Source: a virus. From it: 41,878 nt of DNA. How positions within the stretch are numbered: the stretch's first letter is position 1; every line of letters starts with the position of its first letter. The notes below the pieces were generated by a model. It was not told where the DNA came from. It searched no databases and saw only the letters and a program-made list of their open reading frames with translations. This document shows, one piece after another, positions 25,501 through 37,417 of the stretch. The position numbers were made by a program, and so were the translations under genes. The DNA lies in the IMG/VR virus record IMGVR_UViG_3300043436_003224, positions 1-41,878 of that record. One strand, given 5' to 3'.

Positions 25501-26571
25501 CTACGAAAGTTCGTAGAAGCCTTTACCCCAAAGCGTCAGCAAACGGTTGAAGTATTTTTCATACAGAAGAGCGTTGGTATCTAGACCAAAACGGTTAACT
25601 GCGTATTCCCTGATGGCTTTACGGTCAAGTTTTGGGGCTTCTTGCGCGGCGTCAATAAACTGCTGCAAGGTACGACATCTAAAACCGTTAACCCCCTGAA
25701 TCACATTTTCAGGGAAAGCGCCCCAATCTGTAGTGATTACCGGCGTCCCACATGCCATGGCTTCAGCTACGACTAATCCAAATGGCTCGGTGTAAATAGT
25801 TGGGACAAATGATGCAATTGCGCCCCCCATTAGCTTGGCTCGTTCCTCTGTGCCAACAACCCCTACGTACTCGCCGTAATCGGGCACAGTTCCCTGTCCA
25901 GCGACCACCAGACGCTTTCCTAGGTGTCTACAGACGTCTACGGCCACCTGATAGCCCTTTCGGTCAATAAGGCGTCCTATGAAGAGGTAATAGTCATCAG
26001 GCGTCTCCCTGAATGGGAAGTCCCTTATGTCAACATGGCCAGGGATTACATCGTCATAAAACTGACCGTCTACGTCATTGGGGTTGCCGGCCGCAGCTCC
26101 GTAGCAAACATGCATCCAGGCATAGGACTCAAATACCTTGTACTTCGCGAAAGTTCCTCCGTACCCAACTTCAAACTCCACGGTCATGTTTTGAGGGAAA
26201 GCATCAGCAATCACTTTGTGCGCCCGTCCACCGATTACACAAATGAAGTCTTTGGGCTGGATTCGCTTAGCCATCTCCTCGATAGCCGTGTTGTTGAACT
26301 TCACCCAGTGAGGCAGGGCGTAGTCAAAAGACGCAAGGGAATAATGCTTGCCCTCTAGGGAGTCAAGGCGCTCCTGCTCGGAAATGCACATGATGTTCTC
26401 ATCACAGGGTGCGTCAGTAAATTCCCCGCCATAGAGGTAAACCTCATGGTTGAGGGATTTCATCATTATTGCAAATTTACGAACATTCTCAGTAAAAGCG
26501 CAAGCCGTGAAATCTAAGGTCGTATTAGCGTGTGGTAAACCAACTACGTGGAAGCGCAAGTTTTTCCCCAT
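25501..26571 (-). CDS. GT4-family glycosyltransferase
   Basis: A 356-aa enzyme with the GT-B C-terminal signature: FIGRLIDRKG (about 197-206), LVVAGQG (221-227), and EPFGLVVAEAMACGTPVITT (262-281), which holds the E-x7-E motif (Glu262, Glu270) that contacts the nucleotide-sugar in GT4 enzymes. The N-terminal half is divergent and carries a VIGGRAHKV segment. It has no membrane segment, so it acts in the cytoplasm. Likely targets are virion fibres, host surface precursors or DNA; adjacency to collagen-like fibres suggests fibre glycosylation, as inference. It is the most downstream gene of the leftward region. Confidence 0.85.
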   Translation of the reverse strand: MGKNLRFHVVGLPHANTTLDFTACAFTENVRKFAIMMKSLNHEVYLYGGEFTDAPCDENIMCISEQERLDSLEGKHYSLASFDYALPHWVKFNNTAIEEMAKRIQPKDFICVIGGRAHKVIADAFPQNMTVEFEVGYGGTFAKYKVFESYAWMHVCYGAAAGNPNDVDGQFYDDVIPGHVDIRDFPFRETPDDYYLFIGRLIDRKGYQVAVDVCRHLGKRLVVAGQGTVPDYGEYVGVVGTEERAKLMGGAIASFVPTIYTEPFGLVVAEAMACGTPVITTDWGAFPENVIQGVNGFRCRTLQQFIDAAQEAPKLDRKAIREYAVNRFGLDTNALLYEKYFNRLLTLWGKGFYELS

Positions 26572-29738: not shown

Positions 29739-30488
29739 CTATTGGGTTCTGGCCCACTGAATGACTTTTCGGCTTGTGTGCTGTGCGATGCAGTTGTCCC
29801 CAATTGAGGTGATGTCGTAGCCAAGAGACTCAACATAGGAAATAATCTCCTTGCGTCGTTCTTGATACCAGTCCATAATGCTCCACGTCTCAAAGATGAT
29901 AGGTGGGTAGTTGTTTGCCTTGAGGGTTTCTAGGCCGCCCTTGATGACTGCAAACTCAAGACCCTCAACGTCTATCTTGATGAGTCTGATGTTCTGAAAT
30001 TCGTAATTATCCAGTCGGTCAATCTGTATCTTTTCCATCTTGCCCTGACTGGCGCACTGATTGTTGTTCTCGTGAACGCCAGCATCCAGACTGAAAGCGC
30101 CAATATTTACTTCAACGGAATAATCAGGAGTTGACATCTCTATTTCGAACGCGGCATCTCCGAGTCCTTTATTGATGGGGTAAACGTTCTCTAATCCATT
30201 CAGGACAAGGTTGGCGCACAACTGATAGAAAACTATCCTCTGTGGTTCAAAACCGTAGAACTCAATACCGGGGAATTGTTTAGCCAAAGGAACAACATAA
30301 GTTCCGACATTGCTGCCGATATCTAGGATTACTCCGTCCTTGTTGTCTCCAACCAGGATTGTTGAATAATATTCCAGCCATGCGTCATGACCAGCACCTG
30401 ACCGAAGTCCGTCACTGATTACGTCGGGCTTATCAAAGATAAGAAACTGATTTCCCCTGCATTGAACTACGAGCATATTAGGCAGCAT
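29739..30488 (-). CDS. FkbM-family methyltransferase
   Basis: The 249-aa enzyme carries the SAM-binding motif I (VILDIGSNVGTYVVPLA, about 53-69), an acidic motif II region (IEFYGFEPQR), and the FkbM hallmark LIKIDVEGLEFAVIKG (about 169-184) followed by PPIIFETW. FkbM enzymes O-methylate sugars or small molecules and often sit with glycosyltransferases. Here it lies between a small membrane protein and collagen-like fibres, and could methylate a fibre glycan or product of the neighbouring enzymes. A TAGAAT lies 8 nt before the ATG with no ribosome site. Substrate unknown. Confidence 0.85.
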   Translation of the reverse strand: MLPNMLVVQCRGNQFLIFDKPDVISDGLRSGAGHDAWLEYYSTILVGDNKDGVILDIGSNVGTYVVPLAKQFPGIEFYGFEPQRIVFYQLCANLVLNGLENVYPINKGLGDAAFEIEMSTPDYSVEVNIGAFSLDAGVHENNNQCASQGKMEKIQIDRLDNYEFQNIRLIKIDVEGLEFAVIKGGLETLKANNYPPIIFETWSIMDWYQERRKEIISYVESLGYDITSIGDNCIAQHTSRKVIQWARTQ

Positions 30489-30496
30489 AAAAATTT

Positions 30497-30502
30497 ATTC
30501 TA
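30497..30502 (-). promoter_or_regulatory. -10-like TAGAAT, 8 nt before ATG
   Basis: TAGAAT on the minus strand overlaps the stop of the membrane-protein gene and lies 8 nt before the FkbM start. The spacer is all A/T with no Shine-Dalgarno, favouring a leaderless or weakly translated start. Confidence 0.3.
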
Positions 30503-30784
30503 AACCCACCAGAAGTGCTTAATGATTGAAAGACTCGCCAGGATAACCCAAGCCACATTGAAGAGAATAATTGTTGGAAGCGTCTTTTCGGTAGATGACC
30601 AAATGAGGGCGATGCTTGAAGCGATGGCGAAGATGTAAACCCACCACCACTGGTAGCCAAGAAGCAGGCCAGGGAAGATGATGGCAATTTTGGTAGAAAA
30701 CCCCCAAGCCTCTACGATGTTTGGTTTAGTCCAATACCCCTTGTGAGACATCGTCTTCGTTGCTTGTATTACTTTGTTTAGCAT
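30500..30784 (-). CDS. Small membrane protein
   Basis: This 94-aa protein has a short polar N-terminus and about three hydrophobic segments (roughly 30-45, 46-62 and 69-90, e.g. WWWVYIFAIASSIALIW and ILFNVAWVILASLSII). Trp-rich, ending in FWWV. No family recognised. It overlaps the end of the preceding small gene by 59 nt, an unusually long overlap. It probably sits in the host inner membrane; it might modify the envelope or act in exclusion, but this is a guess. Confidence 0.6.
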   Translation of the reverse strand: MLNKVIQATKTMSHKGYWTKPNIVEAWGFSTKIAIIFPGLLLGYQWWWVYIFAIASSIALIWSSTEKTLPTIILFNVAWVILASLSIIKHFWWV

Positions 30785-30935
30785 TTTTTTTGTATTGTTT
30801 CTCTAAATTAATTAAATGTATTAAAATTATAAATTGGTCGTGACCGCCAAACCAATGCAACCACCAACAGAACTTGTCGTTTCCTTCTTTAGTGTTTGGA
30901 AGGTAGTGGTTATCTACTCGCCTGCTGTGACTCAT
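30726..30935 (-). CDS. Hypothetical 69-aa protein
   Basis: Opens MSHSRRVDNHYLPNTKEGND followed by KFCWWLHWFGGHDQF, and then a Lys/Asn-rich polar tail. The start lies 2 nt after the oxygenase stop. No family recognised. The Trp/His-rich centre looks non-random, and the reading frame fills what would otherwise be a 150-base gap, but the long overlap with the membrane protein gene makes the C-terminal half less certain. Confidence 0.45.
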   Translation of the reverse strand: MSHSRRVDNHYLPNTKEGNDKFCWWLHWFGGHDQFIILIHLINLEKQYKKNAKQSNTSNEDDVSQGVLD

Positions 30936-30937
30936 CT

Positions 30938-31516
30938 TTAATACCCTAAAAGATTTAAATGAGAGTTTTCCTTTTTGTCGTACGCATGGCTAGTCCAGGG
31001 ACCATTGGCGTCTACGTAATGATAGAAACCTTGAATATGGTAGGAATCTTGGGGGACGTTGAATACGGGTCGGAAGTGGTTGACGTCCATCCCCCTGTAG
31101 ATAGCGCCGTCACCCGGTTTCATTACGACTGGAGTATCTCCCATGACGAGAGGCCATTCATAATCCTTGCGGCGATAGTTGTATTCGTAGCAGACACTTA
31201 CAGAGATTTCGCAAGCAGGTCTGTCTATATGTGGGGCCAGTTCCTGACCACGCCTGTAGACCCTGTAAAAAGAGTATGTAGGGATTAGTGACAACCCCGT
31301 GACTTCTTCCACTTTTTCTTTGTAATCAAGAAGCAGAGACTCCATTAGGAAGTCCGCATAAACGGCATGGGCGTTAATTACCTGTGCTGTGTCCGGGCTA
31401 AAAGAATACGCTTCTTTTAAGAGTGCATATTTTGACACAAGAGAGACAACCGAGGCGTCTACAAAATCAGGTACGTGAACATAGTTGTCTAAAAGAAAAT
31501 CTCTTGTCTTACTCAT
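30938..31516 (-). CDS. 2-oxoglutarate/Fe(II) oxygenase-like protein
   Basis: A 192-aa protein with a double-stranded beta-helix pattern: YSFYRVYRRGQELAPHIDRP places the H-x-D iron ligands at His96 and Asp98, and MDVNHFRPVF gives a plausible distal His147 and the 2-oxoglutarate-binding Arg149. VVMKPGDGAIYRG is the strand before the distal His, as in phytanoyl/prolyl hydroxylase-like enzymes. It overlaps the next upstream gene by 8 nt (31509-31516). It belongs to a group of phage dioxygenases; substrate unknown, with protein residues, sugars or a halogenated small molecule as possibilities. Confidence 0.7.
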   Translation of the reverse strand: MSKTRDFLLDNYVHVPDFVDASVVSLVSKYALLKEAYSFSPDTAQVINAHAVYADFLMESLLLDYKEKVEEVTGLSLIPTYSFYRVYRRGQELAPHIDRPACEISVSVCYEYNYRRKDYEWPLVMGDTPVVMKPGDGAIYRGMDVNHFRPVFNVPQDSYHIQGFYHYVDANGPWTSHAYDKKENSHLNLLGY

Positions 31517-32090
31517 AAGAGAGCCATGTCACAAGAGAGTACCTAACACCTTCACTTACGGGGTGGACGATATGCGGGAATGAATAACAAGAAGGGAAAA
31601 AAACAACATCGCCAGCAGATGGCTCGTATGTTATTCCCAAAGTTGGGAACTCTAGTTTTCCTCCTTCAAAATCGTCATTTAAAAAAGCAATCATAGATAG
31701 CACTCTGTTTTTATGAGCACCACCGCAATCAAAGTGCTGCTTATATTCTGTTCCCTTTTCGTATTTTAAAACAAAATACCCTTCATCAAACAAACCGCCT
31801 AAATTATGATGGTCGGCATATTCTGAAGTAGCCCCAGTTACTGCGTTAAAAATATATTCATCAAGTTTTTGTATGTCGTCACGGACCATAATAGTGCTTG
31901 CCAATGGCAGGCTCTTGTTGCTTCGGTAAAGGTTTTGAATGCTCGGTTCGTTTCTGTCTTCATACGTACTGGCATATTCCCAATTTAAAGAAACGTCATC
32001 GTCTATTGCTTTTTCTATAGAGTCAATAATGATTTGAGGTTCTTTCAACAATTTGTCATAAACCCATAATGAAGGGTGGAGTACTTGCAT
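31509..32090 (-). CDS. Prolyl-4-hydroxylase-like 2OG/Fe(II) oxygenase
   Basis: The 193-aa enzyme shows the canonical P4H pattern: a KYEKGTEYKQHFDCGG segment with iron ligands His119 and Asp121, then LSMIAFLNDDFEGGKLEFP, the GDVVFFPSCYSFPHIVHPV strand with distal His173 (His176 alternative), and GVRYSLVTWL with Arg183 for 2-oxoglutarate. Such enzymes hydroxylate peptidyl proline or other residues. Several Gly-Pro-rich collagen-like fibres lie in the same region, which makes a fibre substrate attractive but unproven. Its start overlaps the DUF6065-like gene stop by one base. Confidence 0.85.
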   Translation of the reverse strand: MQVLHPSLWVYDKLLKEPQIIIDSIEKAIDDDVSLNWEYASTYEDRNEPSIQNLYRSNKSLPLASTIMVRDDIQKLDEYIFNAVTGATSEYADHHNLGGLFDEGYFVLKYEKGTEYKQHFDCGGAHKNRVLSMIAFLNDDFEGGKLEFPTLGITYEPSAGDVVFFPSCYSFPHIVHPVSEGVRYSLVTWLSYE

Positions 32091-32833
32091 TATTTTTCTT
32101 TTTTGGCTAGTTCAATATCAACTTTATGCTTGTGGCGTCTATACGGTCCTGCGGTGCCTAGTGACGGCATGATGTATCCGGAACCAAAGCCACTACTCGC
32201 AACATACTTAAAATAAGATTCGTCTTCAAACTCAATGGATGAAAGATTAGTGCTTCGTTTAAACGGAACTACCTGCATCATTGGTGTTCCGTATGGAATC
32301 ATAAAGTCCGTGTTGGCTTTTATGTTTAAAACAATATTGGTTACATGATAAAAATCAGTATGAACAATTGCCGGCAAAACATCATAGTTCTGACTTGGCT
32401 CCCACGAAATGGGAAGTATCAAAGAAGACCACCCAGGTGCAGTCTCAAAACGCCACGGAGTTACAATTTTTGGATATTGCATATTTTCAAGTTTGCGAAC
32501 TCCGACAACAGGGCATCCAGGCGTGTCTTGAACAGAGAAACCCTGTACCCCAATATTTTCAAGTGGTGGGCTCATATTTTCAATGCGTGATTCCCAGAAT
32601 CCATTTTCTGGGTTTGGCCTGAAATACAGATTGCTCCAAAGAGGAACAGTCATTCCCGCTGCTAGGTAGTCATTAACGCCTGCACACTTTTTCAAACCAG
32701 CACCACTAGGCATTGTCTTGTACCATTTAGGCATTGATAATTGCGAGTTTAAATATGGAGGCATCTCCATTAAGCGGTTATCTTCTGGCGTTACTCTGAT
32801 ATGTCCTGGTTTGACCGACTTTTTCTTTTTCAC
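32090..32833 (-). CDS. DUF6065-like hypothetical protein
   Basis: A 247-aa protein that starts at GTG 32833, overlapping the halogenase stop by GTGA with GAGGAA upstream. Features are a basic start (KKKKS), MPKWYKTMPSGAGLKKCAGV, AAGMTVPLWSNLYF and ISWEPSQNYDVLPAIVHTD, resembling the K-C-P-x-x-x-D-x-x-x-x-G-x-x-x-P-L pattern I associate with DUF6065 proteins, which occur beside oxygenases and halogenases. The fold looks beta-rich. The biochemical role is unknown; a partner or substrate-handling protein for the halogenase or oxygenase is plausible. Confidence 0.5.
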   Translation of the reverse strand: MKKKKSVKPGHIRVTPEDNRLMEMPPYLNSQLSMPKWYKTMPSGAGLKKCAGVNDYLAAGMTVPLWSNLYFRPNPENGFWESRIENMSPPLENIGVQGFSVQDTPGCPVVGVRKLENMQYPKIVTPWRFETAPGWSSLILPISWEPSQNYDVLPAIVHTDFYHVTNIVLNIKANTDFMIPYGTPMMQVVPFKRSTNLSSIEFEDESYFKYVASSGFGSGYIMPSLGTAGPYRRHKHKVDIELAKKEK

Positions 32834-34326
32834 TGCTCGTATTCCTCGTCTAAGTTTTGAATTTCTAACAATCCATCTTTATGGTCAACCAACTCGTGAT
32901 TGTGCCTGGAGTTCCTAAAGTTGTCCATTTCCAAATTGACTTTTTGTCGCAGGTTTAGTCTATCAAGGGCAAGCGAAGATGGTTCTTTTGGTAAAAGCCC
33001 TTGGCCTTGCATAACGTGAACTAAATGAGGTACATGAAACATTAGGTTTATCTCTTGGTAATGGTCATACCTGGATGGAACTTTTTCAGACCATAAATCA
33101 ATTAGTTCTTGAAGTTCATCATTAAGAGGCATCTCAGATTGGTCAATCCAAAATTGTGAGTCTCGCCTATCGGAAACGTAATGCAACCTAATCATTGTCA
33201 GTATATTACGCATTGTTTCAGTAATCGTTTTATTGTACGCAATCTGCATTTTTGATGATTTTTTAGTATATGAAGCGACGTTCTGAATAAGCATTTTTAA
33301 TTGAATTAAAGTACTGCCGATACTGGTGGCTTCCAGGGGTTCAACAAACGAGGAAGCAAGGCCTACAGAGACACAGTTTTTCACCCACTGGTTTTTTAAG
33401 AAACCTGCATCGTATTTAAAAGTTTTAGGATTTTCTGGGACCTTATATCCAGTCATCGCTTGCGCTTCTTCAATAGCCTTATCTACAGATATGTGAGAAG
33501 AAGAGAAGATGTAACCGTTACCACGACGTTCTTGCGTTGGTATTTCAAACATCCACCCAGAAGATGCTGCCCTGGCTCGGGTGTATGGGCGAATCTGTCC
33601 ATTAGGGTCAGACTCTGTTGGGAAAGCAATTGCTGAATCACAAAGAAGATACGGGGAAAAAGACTCCCATTCAGTGTTTCCTAGTTTTGTCATAAGAACT
33701 CTGGAAAAACCACTGGCATCAATCCAAAAATCAGCAGAAACAACTGCTTGCTGTTCTGTTGTTACTGAAGATATTTCTCCAGTTTCTGAATCAAGTTCTA
33801 TTGAGTTAACTTCTGCATCAATGAATTTAATCATTCTCGCAAAACATAGTCCTGTTAAATAGTCGTTTAGTTTATTTGTATCAAAATGAAACTGATTTGT
33901 TGTCTTGTGGATGTTTCGTCTACCAATTTTGTTCTGCACAAGACCCGCACTCCCCGTCTGAGAAGTAATTAGTTTATTGGAGTCAACAAACCCAGCATAG
34001 GTAGCAAACAAACCATGCGCAAATATTTCGTCCACTCCACCAATGCTGTGAAAATAGTCAGGGGTATGAGTTGTCCAGTTTTCAAAACGGAGACCATACT
34101 TATGGGTTGCGCTCGTGTTCTCAATAAGTTCACCAGTTGGAATGTCGCAGTCGTTCATGAACTCACGCCAGTGTTCTGTAGAGCCTTCACCAACGCCAAT
34201 AATTCCTATTTTGGAAGAAGAGATTATTGTAATTTCAGAATTAACAAATGCTCTCCGAAGCAATAAGGCAGAAACCAATCCGGCAGTTCCTGAACCGACA
34301 ATGCAGAATGATAAATTGTTATTCAT
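32830..34326 (-). CDS. Flavin-dependent tryptophan-halogenase-like enzyme
   Basis: This 498-aa protein has the FAD-binding GSGTAG (11-16), the GVGEGST box (44-50, cf. GVGEAT in halogenases), a catalytic-type lysine in HKYGLRFENW (Lys76; Lys79 in PrnA), and FVEPLEATSIGS with the conserved Glu region near the active site. The W-x-W-x-I-P motif typical of flavin halogenases appears as WMFEIP (258-263), with Phe for the second Trp. Flavin halogenases use FADH2, O2 and halide to form HOCl or HOBr that attacks an aromatic substrate; a viral member (VirX1 from cyanophage Syn10) is known to halogenate. No dedicated flavin reductase is seen nearby. Substrate unknown. Confidence 0.85.
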   Translation of the reverse strand: MNNNLSFCIVGSGTAGLVSALLLRRAFVNSEITIISSSKIGIIGVGEGSTEHWREFMNDCDIPTGELIENTSATHKYGLRFENWTTHTPDYFHSIGGVDEIFAHGLFATYAGFVDSNKLITSQTGSAGLVQNKIGRRNIHKTTNQFHFDTNKLNDYLTGLCFARMIKFIDAEVNSIELDSETGEISSVTTEQQAVVSADFWIDASGFSRVLMTKLGNTEWESFSPYLLCDSAIAFPTESDPNGQIRPYTRARAASSGWMFEIPTQERRGNGYIFSSSHISVDKAIEEAQAMTGYKVPENPKTFKYDAGFLKNQWVKNCVSVGLASSFVEPLEATSIGSTLIQLKMLIQNVASYTKKSSKMQIAYNKTITETMRNILTMIRLHYVSDRRDSQFWIDQSEMPLNDELQELIDLWSEKVPSRYDHYQEINLMFHVPHLVHVMQGQGLLPKEPSSLALDRLNLRQKVNLEMDNFRNSRHNHELVDHKDGLLEIQNLDEEYEQ

Positions 34327-34332
34327 TTTTAC

Positions 34333-35412
34333 CTAAGAATATGCTATGTAAGACTTGATGTAGTTAACTTCAAGAATCCACTGACTTAGCGTCAAGTCAG
34401 TGAAGGGCGGAATTTGCTCCAATATTTCTAGTGGAGACAAAGACGACTCTATACCATACTTAATGCATATTTCGTATATTTTTGATTCAATGTGTTGTCG
34501 TTCCGAGGAAAGTATTTCTTCTGGCACAACGGGCGGAGAAGGATGGTTGTGCACCAAAGCATTTAGTGTTCTGTATCGGTGAGTACTCTTTACCCAGTTC
34601 AAAAATAAGGGGCCGACGCTGGCCTGCTCCGTAAAACCATGTCGCGTATTTTCTTGATTTTGAAAGTATCTGTAAACAGGCATATCTTCCTGATATTCAG
34701 ATATCTCGTTTAGCACGTTTTCTGGTATCTGAAGAGTTTCAATATAATTTTTACATGCTAAAGAAACTTCATTATCGCTATCAAATGGACTCTCTGTTAG
34801 GGATGCCCATTCAATAATGAGTTTCATTAGACCCATAGGGGTTTTTGTAACAGCAGTTACAGCAGGCCAATCCCTAAAGGAATCATTAACACCGGGTATG
34901 AAACCATATACAACATGAGCAACACCGGCAGCACCAAGCATTACTGTTACTTTACTAATGTGTTGAAACAAAACAGTGTCTGTCACTGTAGGGCGCACCC
35001 CATCTTCTAAGGGAAACTGAACGGGTCCATATTTTCCTGCGTCACAACGGTCCATAAAATCTACGGCGTCTTTACTGGCCGTAGCAGGTGTCATTACCTT
35101 GGAAGACATCACGCAATACATGTCTTCTTCTTTGATGGAGTCTTTAACAAAGTGCTCTAAGATGTCGTCATAGCAAATAGCGTCAATGATTGACTCTTGG
35201 TTATTACGGACAAGAACATAGTTAAAATCACCAGAGTAAGGGTCTAGTTCTTTAAAGGCAATAATCGTCTTTCCATCCGAAGTAAACGTGTCATATTCCG
35301 TATATTCAATGTTTCCACTAGGCGTTGGGGTGTACAACTTGAAATCAGCCGTGCCGTCAATGCCGTAATAGCACTTATAGTTTGCTATTTCTATCAGCGA
35401 AATGTCGCTCAT
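34333..35412 (-). CDS. Hypothetical 359-aa protein of halogenase operon
   Basis: The protein lies 6 nt upstream of the halogenase and 10 nt downstream of the 75-aa gene, so it is part of the same operon. The N-terminal ~130 residues are beta-rich and acidic (YTEYDTFTSDGKTIIAFKEL), the central part has HISKVTVMLGAAGVAHVVYG, and the C-terminus is helical with EEILSSERQHIESKIYEICI. No signal peptide and no recognisable motif. It might be the protein substrate or a carrier for the halogenase/oxygenase set, but I have no sequence evidence for that. An AAGGT ribosome site precedes ATG 35412. Confidence 0.6.
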   Translation of the reverse strand: MSDISLIEIANYKCYYGIDGTADFKLYTPTPSGNIEYTEYDTFTSDGKTIIAFKELDPYSGDFNYVLVRNNQESIIDAICYDDILEHFVKDSIKEEDMYCVMSSKVMTPATASKDAVDFMDRCDAGKYGPVQFPLEDGVRPTVTDTVLFQHISKVTVMLGAAGVAHVVYGFIPGVNDSFRDWPAVTAVTKTPMGLMKLIIEWASLTESPFDSDNEVSLACKNYIETLQIPENVLNEISEYQEDMPVYRYFQNQENTRHGFTEQASVGPLFLNWVKSTHRYRTLNALVHNHPSPPVVPEEILSSERQHIESKIYEICIKYGIESSLSPLEILEQIPPFTDLTLSQWILEVNYIKSYIAYS

Positions 35413-35422
35413 TTTTTACCTT

Positions 35423-35650
35423 TTAAGACAGTGCAGCAATTTTTGCATCTGCACGTGCGATGTTTGTCAACAATGACGTTACTCGTGCTTCATTGCCTGT
35501 TGGTGGTTCTGCGGGAACCCATGTCGTTGCGTCAAATTCGTCAGGGTCAATCCCTAGTCCTACAAGGAGTCCATACACCTCGTTCAGCATATGCTTCTTG
35601 GTGTCGCCCAGTGATTTGATTTTTTGCTCTGTAGTTAAGTTGAATTCCAT
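35423..35650 (-). CDS. Small conserved fibre-adjacent protein
   Basis: A 75-aa helical protein (opens MEFNLTTEQKIKSLGDTKKH; then LGIDPDEFDATTWVP; ends in an Ala-rich helix) placed 15 nt after the His-rich fibre gene behind CGGAG. The acidic and helical composition with a Leu/Ile pattern suggests a small coiled-coil. It follows the fibre the way other small partners in this window follow theirs. Family not recognised. Confidence 0.6.
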   Translation of the reverse strand: MEFNLTTEQKIKSLGDTKKHMLNEVYGLLVGLGIDPDEFDATTWVPAEPPTGNEARVTSLLTNIARADAKIAALS

Positions 35651-35665
35651 GATTTCTCCGTTTTG

Positions 35666-37417
35666 TTAAGCGTTAAGAAGGATATAAGTGGTTCCAGAAG
35701 AAGCCGTATGAGTGTCGGATGCTGCTGTGGTGCCAGAGCGCACATCGTAGGACAATCCAGACGGTGTAGTTTCTGTCAAGATAAGAATAGCACCACCACC
35801 ACCTGCTCCGCCTCTTACTCCGCTTGCGCCTGTAGTTCCAGCGCCTCCTGCACCGCCTGTGCCTCCAGCGCCTCCAGCGCCTCCTGCGCCCCCTGCCCCT
35901 CCTGCGCCCCCAGCACCTCCAGCACCTCCAGCCCCTCCAGCCCCTCCAACATAATGAACAGTTGCATTGGCGACATGGGTTGCATGAGAAGGGGAATGAG
36001 GGTTTACGTGCTGCTGGTGATGAGGATTTGTGTGCACATTTGTATGTGGATGTGTTGTGTGGTGTGGGTGTACGTGGTGACCCGTATGACCACCGGCAGT
36101 ATGGTGATGCCCCACATGGTGGTGTCCACCATTAACCGTGTGACCTGCATAATAACCATTCTTAGGGTCGTGCGAGTCGCAGCAATGGTGGTGTGGGTTT
36201 ACTGTATGCGTATGGTTTACGTGGTGATGAGTCGTATGGTGAACCGTATGGTGTCCACCAGGGGTGTGATGGTGACCATTGGGAACATGGTGACCACTTG
36301 CAACATGGCCATTGTTCGTATGATACGGAGTCCCATGGTGGCCATTGTTTATATGAGTTGGAGTAGCCGAATGGGGAGTAACCGTGTAGTCGGGGGCTTT
36401 TGTTCCGGCAGCACCAGTAACTCCGGTTGCACCCGTGGTTCCCGTGGCTCCCGTGGTTCCTGTTGCGCCCGTGGTTCCAGAAGCGCCTGAAGCACCCGAA
36501 GCGCCCGCAACGCCAGTAGCACCAACAGCACCAATCATGGCAAGAGACATAACTGTTCCGGTTCCCGAAATATTCTTGGCAATAATAGCGACTACCGGTC
36601 CACCCATTCCGCCAACTCCACCAACACCGCCTGCACCAAGGACGCCAGATGCTCCCTGTGCTCCGCTTGCTCCTCGTGCTCCAGAAGCGCCGCTTGCGCC
36701 AGATGCTCCCCGTGCTCCAGAAGCGCCGCTTGCGCCAGATGCTCCTCTGCCACCAGCCGCGCCTACCGTTAATCCGTCACTAGGATGTCCGCCTGCGGTT
36801 CCTGCAACCCCTGTTGCTCCTACTGCTCCTGCGATTCCTGTGGCTCCTGTAAGTCCTGTGGCTCCAGCAATTCCTGTTGCCCCTGTTGCTCCGGTTGCTC
36901 CTGAAGAACCCGCAACACCCGAAGCACCTGTAGTTCCACTAGAACCTCCTGCTAACGCAATAGGTGTAGGGCCGTAAACAGCGTCAATAATTGCGCCACC
37001 AAGCATTGAAGTGACGCTTTTAAGAAGGTACGTAGGAAGAGCACTGACGTTTGGGTTGGTGTTTCCTCCGCCTTGTCCACCCAGTCGGTAGGTAATAGCA
37101 CCAGAAGTATGACCAGAAAGCGTTCCTGTTAAAACAGCAGAGGCAGTACTGGCGATTGTTCCATTGCTGGAGCCAGCAGTATTGCCAGTGACGTCACCAA
37201 TACCGACAACACCGTTGATGATTGCAGCGCCTTTGACGAACACTTTAAAACCCGAAGTAAGAAGAATGTTTCCTAAAGGAACGGTCAGTGTGTTGTAGTA
37301 CATGTCCCTAGTAAGGGTTACGGTTCCGCTGATGGTCACATCGCCATCGGTGCCTGTTCCGTAAACAGCGTCATTTCCTGAACGAACAACAATGTTCTCA
37401 ATTCTTGAAATTGCCAT
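35666..37417 (-). CDS. Tail fibre with histidine-rich domain
   Basis: A 583-aa fibre. The N-terminal part (about 1-110) has YGTGTDGDVTISGTVTLTRD and FKVFVKGAAIIN strands shared with the next upstream fibre. Long Gly-Ala-Ser/Thr triplet regions (about 155-345, e.g. GASGASGARGASG) follow, likely collagen-like or polyglycine-II. Residues about 347-489 hold about 47 His, often HH or HHH, with Asn/Gly/Thr/Pro and one CC pair. A GGA repeat (about 490-535) precedes a short beta tip (GGAILILTETTPSG). The His tract predicts heavy divalent-metal binding. Composition is unlike any neighbouring gene. Confidence 0.8.
   Translation of the reverse strand: MAISRIENIVVRSGNDAVYGTGTDGDVTISGTVTLTRDMYYNTLTVPLGNILLTSGFKVFVKGAAIINGVVGIGDVTGNTAGSSNGTIASTASAVLTGTLSGHTSGAITYRLGGQGGGNTNPNVSALPTYLLKSVTSMLGGAIIDAVYGPTPIALAGGSSGTTGASGVAGSSGATGATGATGIAGATGLTGATGIAGAVGATGVAGTAGGHPSDGLTVGAAGGRGASGASGASGARGASGASGASGARGASGAQGASGVLGAGGVGGVGGMGGPVVAIIAKNISGTGTVMSLAMIGAVGATGVAGASGASGASGTTGATGTTGATGTTGATGVTGAAGTKAPDYTVTPHSATPTHINNGHHGTPYHTNNGHVASGHHVPNGHHHTPGGHHTVHHTTHHHVNHTHTVNPHHHCCDSHDPKNGYYAGHTVNGGHHHVGHHHTAGGHTGHHVHPHHTTHPHTNVHTNPHHQQHVNPHSPSHATHVANATVHYVGGAGGAGGAGGAGGAGGAGGAGGAGGAGGTGGAGGAGTTGASGVRGGAGGGGAILILTETTPSGLSYDVRSGTTAASDTHTASSGTTYILLNA
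35950..36380 (-). repeat. His-rich low-complexity coding tract
   Basis: On the coding strand this stretch is dominated by CAC/CAT codons between Asn, Gly, Thr and Pro codons. The spacing is irregular (NGHH, TPGGHH, NPHHH), so it is not a simple microsatellite; the protein composition itself appears selected. Confidence 0.8.

Follow-up and report, generated by a model that had tools for sequence, protein, structure and literature searches.

A conserved viral halogenase-oxygenase cassette with a dUTPase-fold partner and a histidine-rich tail fibre as its candidate substrate

Halogenases and 2-oxoglutarate (2OG) oxygenases have long been known in phages, as two reports record (PMC3037559, PMC2984593), and a third describes VirX1 as a phage enzyme able to act on large and small aromatics (PMC8407142). 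Phage halogenases such as VirX1 of cyanophage Syn10 and the PrnA-like enzymes of cyanophages and pelagiphage HTVC008M belong to the same enzyme family as the one studied here, which is encoded in a 41,878-base linear virus record (IMGVR_UViG_3300043436_003224; this whole stretch is hereafter called the window). A preliminary description of the window had noted nine minus-strand open reading frames (ORFs) at 29739-35650, in the order 75-amino-acid (aa) protein (p75), 359-aa protein (u359), halogenase, DUF6065-like protein (d247), P4H-like oxygenase, second 2OG oxygenase, two small proteins (s69 and s94) and FkbM methyltransferase, with fibre genes on both flanks. All nine were present in the window ORF list in that order, and the flanking fibre genes were confirmed. 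To our knowledge, no natural substrate of any phage halogenase has been established. We lean towards the view that these genes include a virus-borne cassette that hydroxylates and/or halogenates the virus's own His-rich tail fibre.

The fibre gene concerned immediately precedes p75, shares its strand and is separated from it by a 15-nt gap; it falls outside the coordinates of the preliminary description. Residues 349-488 of its product (140 aa) contain 47 His (codons CAT 24, CAC 23), 3 Tyr, 2 Cys forming a CC pair, and no Trp. We scored an ORF as His-rich if a 50-aa span held at least 22% His, and looked for such ORFs within 5 kb upstream of a halogenase gene. The sample comprised 71 loci with distinct halogenase genes and at least 3.2 kb upstream, 17 of 88 with less room or a score of 300 or below being left out, and no fetched locus in this count was found through the fibre gene. 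Of the 71 loci, 65 had a His-rich ORF upstream; among the remaining genes of at least 100 aa in the 88 loci scanned, 1 of 1009 was His-rich (Fisher p ~4e-96, ignoring shared descent); within the 71 loci themselves, 0 of 837 other genes were His-rich. The window had already been inspected when this cut-off was set, and the contrast holds from 12% His (69/71 loci vs 30/822 other genes) to 30% (50/71 vs 0/852), with 68 loci vs 7/834, 66 vs 3/836 and 60 vs 0/842 at intermediate cut-offs. Two relatives with long sequences (156 kb, and 203 kb of which 200 kb were covered) hold 148 and 174 genes, and in each the cassette fibre is the only His-rich one.

A search with the fibre N-terminal domain (best 80 of 367 relatives) pointed the same way. 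With incomplete ORFs and duplicates left out, 65 His-rich ORFs had a halogenase within 3.2 kb downstream and none with room lacked one, and the 25 fibres without a downstream halogenase included none that was His-rich. Also returned were 38 paralogues that are not His-rich but lie near a halogenase, 3 fibres of intermediate His content with a halogenase, and 10 ORFs without room. Because it was seeded with His-rich fibres, this count is supportive, not independent. Across 210 divergent pairs, identity was 0.38 in the His segment, vs 0.33 against shuffled sequences, and 0.45 in the N-terminal 110 residues. Despite this divergence, the segment keeps 18-40% His in 73 fibres, and compared with the rest of the same 73 proteins it is enriched in Trp (3.9-fold), Pro (1.7-fold) and Tyr (1.6-fold).

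Collagen-type repeats, found in seven window ORFs, were considered as the selected substrate and rejected. An ORF with G-X-Y repeats occurred in 27/32 and 59/83 loci, a looser link than that of the His-rich gene, and also in 14 of 80 loci fetched with DUF6065 (best 80 of 541 relatives in viral contigs). Three of the DUF6065 loci showed His-rich ORFs; by eye these resemble repeats read in another frame, and we did not take them as support.

The cassette genes are closely packed, with neighbours ranging from a 59-nt overlap (the 69-aa/94-aa pair) to an 11-nt gap, and the halogenase and d247 genes overlap by 4 nt. The preliminary description had proposed a search of other phage genomes for linkage of these genes, and would have been refuted by homologues that never occur together; we found that they do. 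Our halogenase search of viral contigs gave 32 loci, and the d247 search took the best 80 of 171 viral relatives plus 3 genome contigs. In 82 of the 83, the gene immediately upstream of d247 encodes a halogenase, and the 83rd contig begins inside d247; the d247 profile was made from halogenase-linked copies and thus favours such relatives. Among 89 distinct d247 proteins with at least 300 bp upstream (4 of 93 had less and were left out), 86 have a halogenase directly upstream, and the other three are members of P4H-DUF6065 islands, which are compared below. When s94 was searched alone (best 80 of 175 relatives, 3 of them already in the sample and not recounted), both halogenase and d247 accompanied it in 72 of the 77 loci that this search added, and the remaining 5 contigs begin no more than 0.6 kb upstream of s94.

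Gene content was counted in the 59 loci with 3 kb on both sides, those with less on either side being left out. d247 was found in 59, P4H in 55, p75 in 53, s94 in 50 and u359 in 42, followed by s69 (11), a glycosyltransferase relative within 4.5 kb of the halogenase (11), the second 2OG oxygenase (5) and FkbM (2); across all loci gathered, FkbM occurred in 5 distinct copies. The position of P4H varies: among 86 loci, 43 have it immediately before the halogenase gene, 29 have it one gene further upstream and 5, like the window, have it just after d247, with none in range in 7 and 2 loci cut. Cellular relatives of d247 came from only 3 genome contigs, all metagenome-assembled genomes. Taken together, P4H, halogenase, d247 and s94 form the core of the cassette, p75 and u359 are common members, and FkbM and the second oxygenase were added in the lineage of the window and in a few more. 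Chance gene order is excluded, because the core is conserved in dozens of divergent viral loci. The idea of one dedicated pathway is supported for the four core proteins, but not for all nine. As a separate observation, s94 is 74-100% identical in the best 80 of 175 relatives, and many of these loci encode d247 and u359 proteins whose identity falls to ~35-60%.

The protein named DUF6065-like turned out to be better described as a member of the dUTPase superfamily. Window d247 alone matched no Pfam family at E<=10. PF00692 was matched by 22 of 58 d247 members at E<=10 (best 7.6e-10), the window member not among them. A 58-member profile gave 23 PDB matches (best E 0.0012, most above 0.01, up to E 1.2), of which 20 carry a dUTPase or dUTP pyrophosphatase label; Foldseek gives 3ecy such a title as well, and 3so2 and Wsv112 have no such label. 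With a d247 model built from 21 sequences (predicted local distance difference test, pLDDT, 71.5; predicted template modelling score, pTM, 0.64), Foldseek returned dUTPases first (best E 3.5e-4), and the 50 entries listed by VIA-align are dUTPases (best Z 9.8, root-mean-square deviation 2.9 over 120 residues). The residues of an active dUTPase, namely the motif-3 Asp, which we take to be catalytic, and the motif-4 Arg, are those that d247 lacks. Motif 3 reads [VI]-[HN]-[TS]-D vs I-D-x-D in dUTPases, the expected Asp being His in 43/58 members and Asn in 15/58, and the motif-4 Arg position is Pro in 55/58. The likeliest reading is therefore that d247 has the dUTPase fold and does not hydrolyse dUTP, and since the Asp is replaced in all 58 members, a binding or scaffold role appears likelier. 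W37, C50, W66, D160 and R193 are invariant and Y162 nearly so, and these residues would be expected to line a site.

Kinship of d247 with DUF6065 is probably real and remote. PF19541 had no match in the window record at E<=10, and 7/58 d247 homologues matched it weakly (best E=0.0042); hhalign of d247 against DUF6065 gave E=1.7e-5 and probability 78. DUF6065 as the identity of d247 was rejected: strong PF19541 matches lie elsewhere in two records, and d247 itself gave one weak match, in the record of locus L029 (E=3e-4, under the cut-off). The DUF6065 profile found no dUTPase in the PDB, only two chance-level NsrQ matches (E=1.3), and the d247-DUF6065 kinship is weaker than that of d247 with dUTPases. 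Distant d247 relatives occur in 9 of 50,697 cultured phage records scanned (best 27.4% identical). Two d247-like genes without a nearby halogenase are those of haloarchaeal virus HF2 (L123:5914-8771) and cyanophage Sf-CH8 (L122:5833-6627). The HF2 protein matches both the dUTPase (PF00692) and DUF6065 profiles, and a fibre-domain-like ORF (E=4.7e-6) lies ~1 kb from its gene on the opposite strand.

The names given to the enzymes were largely borne out. PF04820 covers residues 8-452 of the halogenase at 341.8 bits vs a cut-off of 21, and the nearest PDB match is 6frl (5.3e-57), with VirX1 (6qgm) at 8.7e-36. The window protein carries GSGTAG for flavin adenine dinucleotide (FAD), ATHKYGLR with K76, EPLE from residue 329 and GWMFEIP; K76 is presumably the catalytic Lys, and we assume a corresponding role for the EPLE Glu. 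Among relatives, GVGE is found in 85/85 and W-x-[WFL]-x-[IV]P in 83/85, EPLE in 76/83 with EPIE in the remaining 7, and the strict Lys motif in 76/83 with THK retained in the remaining 7. The FAD, Lys and EPLE motifs of the window halogenase are intact, GWMFEIP has F where WxWxIP has its second W, and halide-dependent activity with reduced FAD is predicted. The P4H-like protein has HFD at 119-121, the distal H173 and R183, and HxD...H...R/K is kept in 76/76 distinct family members scoring >150. Inactive active sites, which the preliminary description had named as grounds for dropping its proposal, are therefore not what the motifs of either enzyme predict.

For the second 2OG oxygenase the assignment stands in part: HxD...H is kept in 6/6 distinct family members, but the protein has no Pfam match, and phrog_2954, which it matches, is labelled 'ferrochelatase'. 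The FkbM name holds at 79.3 vs a cut-off of 37.7 bits for TIGR01444. Pfam, PHROG and TIGRFAM-type profile scans gave no credible family match for the 359-, 94-, 75- and 69-aa proteins, and the AlphaFold model of u359 (pLDDT 50) was too poor to use. The features are collected in Table 1. Elsewhere in the window phrog_23 (tail-sheath) was matched. A T4/cyanophage label for the virus was dropped, gp23 (PF07068) not being found in 7 relatives, yet found in P-SSM2 and HTVC008M.

Table 1. Features of the cassette and its surroundings in the window.
Feature	Coordinates	Strand	Evidence
Tail-fibre protein, 583 aa	35666..37417	-	phrog_6320 tail fiber E=1e-25; PF01391 Collagen E=8.1e-12
His-rich low-complexity fibre segment, residues 349-488	35954..36373	-	composition count
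p75, 75-aa protein, no assigned function	35423..35650	-	in 53/59 loci
u359, 359-aa protein, optional, position within cassette varies	34333..35412	-	42/59 loci, short relatives included
Flavin-dependent (tryptophan-type) halogenase, 498 aa	32830..34326	-	PF04820 E=8.5e-102
d247, predicted dUTPase-fold protein, degenerate catalytic motifs, phrog_7084, remotely DUF6065-like	32090..32833	-	profile and model
P4H-like 2OG-Fe(II) oxygenase, 193 aa	31509..32090	-	PF13640 E=1e-15
Second putative 2OG oxygenase, 192 aa, local extra	30938..31516	-	phrog_2954 E=3.8e-42; 5/59 loci
s69, 69-aa protein, 59-nt overlap with next gene	30726..30935	-	11/59 loci
s94, 94-aa hydrophobic protein, putative membrane protein (by eye), cassette member	30500..30784	-	linkage counts
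FkbM-family methyltransferase, local extra	29739..30488	-	TIGR01444 E=3.8e-22; 2/59 loci
Glycosyltransferase within fibre region	25501..26571	-	PF00534 E=1e-17; phrog_3408 3.5e-80

The preliminary description had left three substrates side by side: fibre residues, host glycans or a small molecule. The upstream His-rich gene makes the fibre the leading candidate. The enzymes travel with a binding protein that is apparently non-catalytic and with a fibre segment under compositional constraint, which is most simply explained if the fibre is what they act on; synteny suggests this, and both substrate and chemistry are what we infer from sequence. According to gene order, the His-rich fibre gene would be read just before the cassette. 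The P4H-like Fe(II)/2OG oxygenase would then hydroxylate side chains, and the flavin-dependent halogenase, with host-supplied FADH2, would halogenate aromatic side chains (His, Tyr, Trp) in the low-complexity segment. The dUTPase-fold protein may serve as a scaffold or docking subunit through which the enzymes gain access to the fibre, and s94, being hydrophobic, might conceivably anchor the process at the membrane. Once modified, the fast-diverging segment would tune how the fibre adsorbs, binds metal or is protected.

Several points weigh against the fibre as the substrate. Six of the 71 loci have no fibre over the threshold; five of these carry a same-position fibre with 10-20% His, and the sixth, L031, has neither such a fibre nor d247. 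The loci share descent, so the counts are not independent trials, and the sample includes L026, a near-identical record to the window. As the window segment is devoid of Trp, either Tyr or His must be the halogen acceptor or hydroxylation dominates, and we know of no His-directed flavin halogenase. In two phages that do carry a halogenase, no gene exceeded the His threshold among 206 in P-SSM2 (~10 kb outside the stretches covered) or 153 in HTVC008M. Further, the d247-like neighbourhoods of Sf-CH8 and HF2 hold no halogenase, and 5 of the 80 DUF6065 loci hold a d247 homologue without a halogenase, 3 of them with room upstream. d247-like genes without halogenase therefore exist, and d247 is not solely a halogenase partner.

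Three other explanations were weighed against modification of the fibre. In phage infection, the Ferrojan-horse idea holds that metal on a tail fibre serves as bait for a host receptor. The His-rich segment could be a metal-binding receptor bait of this type, with the enzymes protecting or tuning it by oxidation and halogenation perhaps absent. The 47 His and the CC pair within 140 aa are in keeping with this, as are the 73 fibres that hold their His content although their sequences differ, but a metal bait leaves the conserved halogenase unexplained, and we consider it quite unlikely. Another explanation is that the flavoenzyme is no halogenase, but a protein hydroxylase like LodB or QhpG. 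Weak matches to LodB (E=1.1e-7), QhpG (8.8e-6) and GoxB (1e-4) exist, and the window clade has WMFEIP, its second W replaced by F, instead of WxWxIP. The matches nevertheless fall far under the equivalog cut-offs (31.3 vs 400, 24.9 vs 240 and 21.5 vs 400 bits, respectively), and a hydroxylase is hard to reconcile with the PF04820 match, the strict WxWxIP in 72/85 relatives or the 30 PDB matches listed, 28 of which are labelled tryptophan halogenase, the other two being VirX1 and LooH. We regard it as very improbable.

The enzymes could instead serve auxiliary metabolism, making or altering a diffusible halogenated or hydroxylated metabolite, with the fibre neighbourhood incidental. The earlier reports list cultured cyanophage halogenases as sporadic host-like genes (PMC3037559, PMC2984593), such halogenases are found in varied genomic places, and VirX1 is reported to take many small molecules (PMC8407142). 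On the other hand, scans of ten proteins, four of which have no known family, recognised neither a carrier protein nor a flavin reductase nor any further enzyme of biosynthesis, and an incidental neighbourhood does not sit well with a His-rich fibre in 65 of 71 loci. A metabolite as the product is thus unlikely, and modification of the fibre remains our preferred explanation.

A wider proposal can be put forward tentatively. Some phages may add both halogens and hydroxyls to the fibre with which they bind receptors, a dUTPase having been repurposed as the enzyme-substrate adaptor and selection acting on the composition, rather than the sequence, of a hypervariable His/aromatic-rich segment; the P4H-DUF6065 islands with FPPHFPP proteins would form a hydroxylation-only sister branch. 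In these islands of uncultured phages, a P4H-like gene lies near a DUF6065 protein distantly similar to d247, and relatives of p75 or u359 are sometimes present, as in the cassette, whereas no halogenase was found in the stretches of the 80 loci. All 80 hold a P4H-type ORF and 78 hold two or more; in 49, such an ORF ends no more than 120 bp upstream of DUF6065. DUF6065 had 0 matches in the 50,697 cultured phage records at E<=1e-5.

Some features of the islands are recorded here for their own sake. Several 2OG oxygenases near a DUF6065 gene are widespread in uncultured phages (L206-L285, e.g. L206:4671-12716, L254 and L262), and some of these islands carry a collagen-like fibre or glutathione-peroxidase-like genes besides p75/u359 relatives. 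In 3 halogenase-free d247 loci, small proteins ending in FPPHFPP/FPPF repeats (L212:2540-2977, L215:1065-1454, L224:11-364) are encoded upstream of d247-like, P4H and DUF6065 genes; the L212 copy, which was scanned, has a PASTA domain (E=1.6e-6). These loci possibly represent the same layout with a proline/phenylalanine/histidine-rich partner, the repeats being possible hydroxylation substrates. On a Sinorhizobium medicae plasmid, a DUF6065 gene follows 9 bp after a gene for another surface protein, an autotransporter (L306:3403-6684).

The cassette thus names a specific protein substrate candidate and a partner protein for a phage halogenase, and a dUTPase fold has apparently shifted from hydrolysis to another role. 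If the proposed modification is true, this virus decorates its own adhesin with halogens and hydroxyls, which would add a new layer to the chemistry between phage and host and provide a source of halogenases that act on proteins. A mostly open-access literature search, which did not extend to bioRxiv, yielded no account of the cassette, of the partner family or of the His-rich fibre.

Compared with known systems, the cassette stands apart in its combination of parts. Cultured phage halogenases are at most 38.1% identical to that of the window (60 matches listed of 63 records), and the stretches of P-SSM2, HTVC008M and S-H38 (the last only around its halogenase) gave no match to d247, s94, p75 or u359 at E<=1e-3. 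HTVC008M is alike in having an annotated dioxygenase gene directly upstream of its halogenase; this pair lies between the terminase small and large subunit genes (L408:12799-16772). With the dUTPase superfamily, d247 probably shares the fold and the motif 3-4 sequence kinship, and differs in its replaced residues and in the coupling of its gene to a halogenase. Clusters for ribosomally synthesized and post-translationally modified peptides, and other substrate-adjacent modification clusters, likewise encode enzymes beside a repetitive protein substrate, but there the substrate is a peptide precursor, whereas here the candidate is a virion fibre. The enzyme families are known; what is new is that they are joined in a fixed set to a dUTPase-fold partner with degenerate motifs and to a fibre rich in His.

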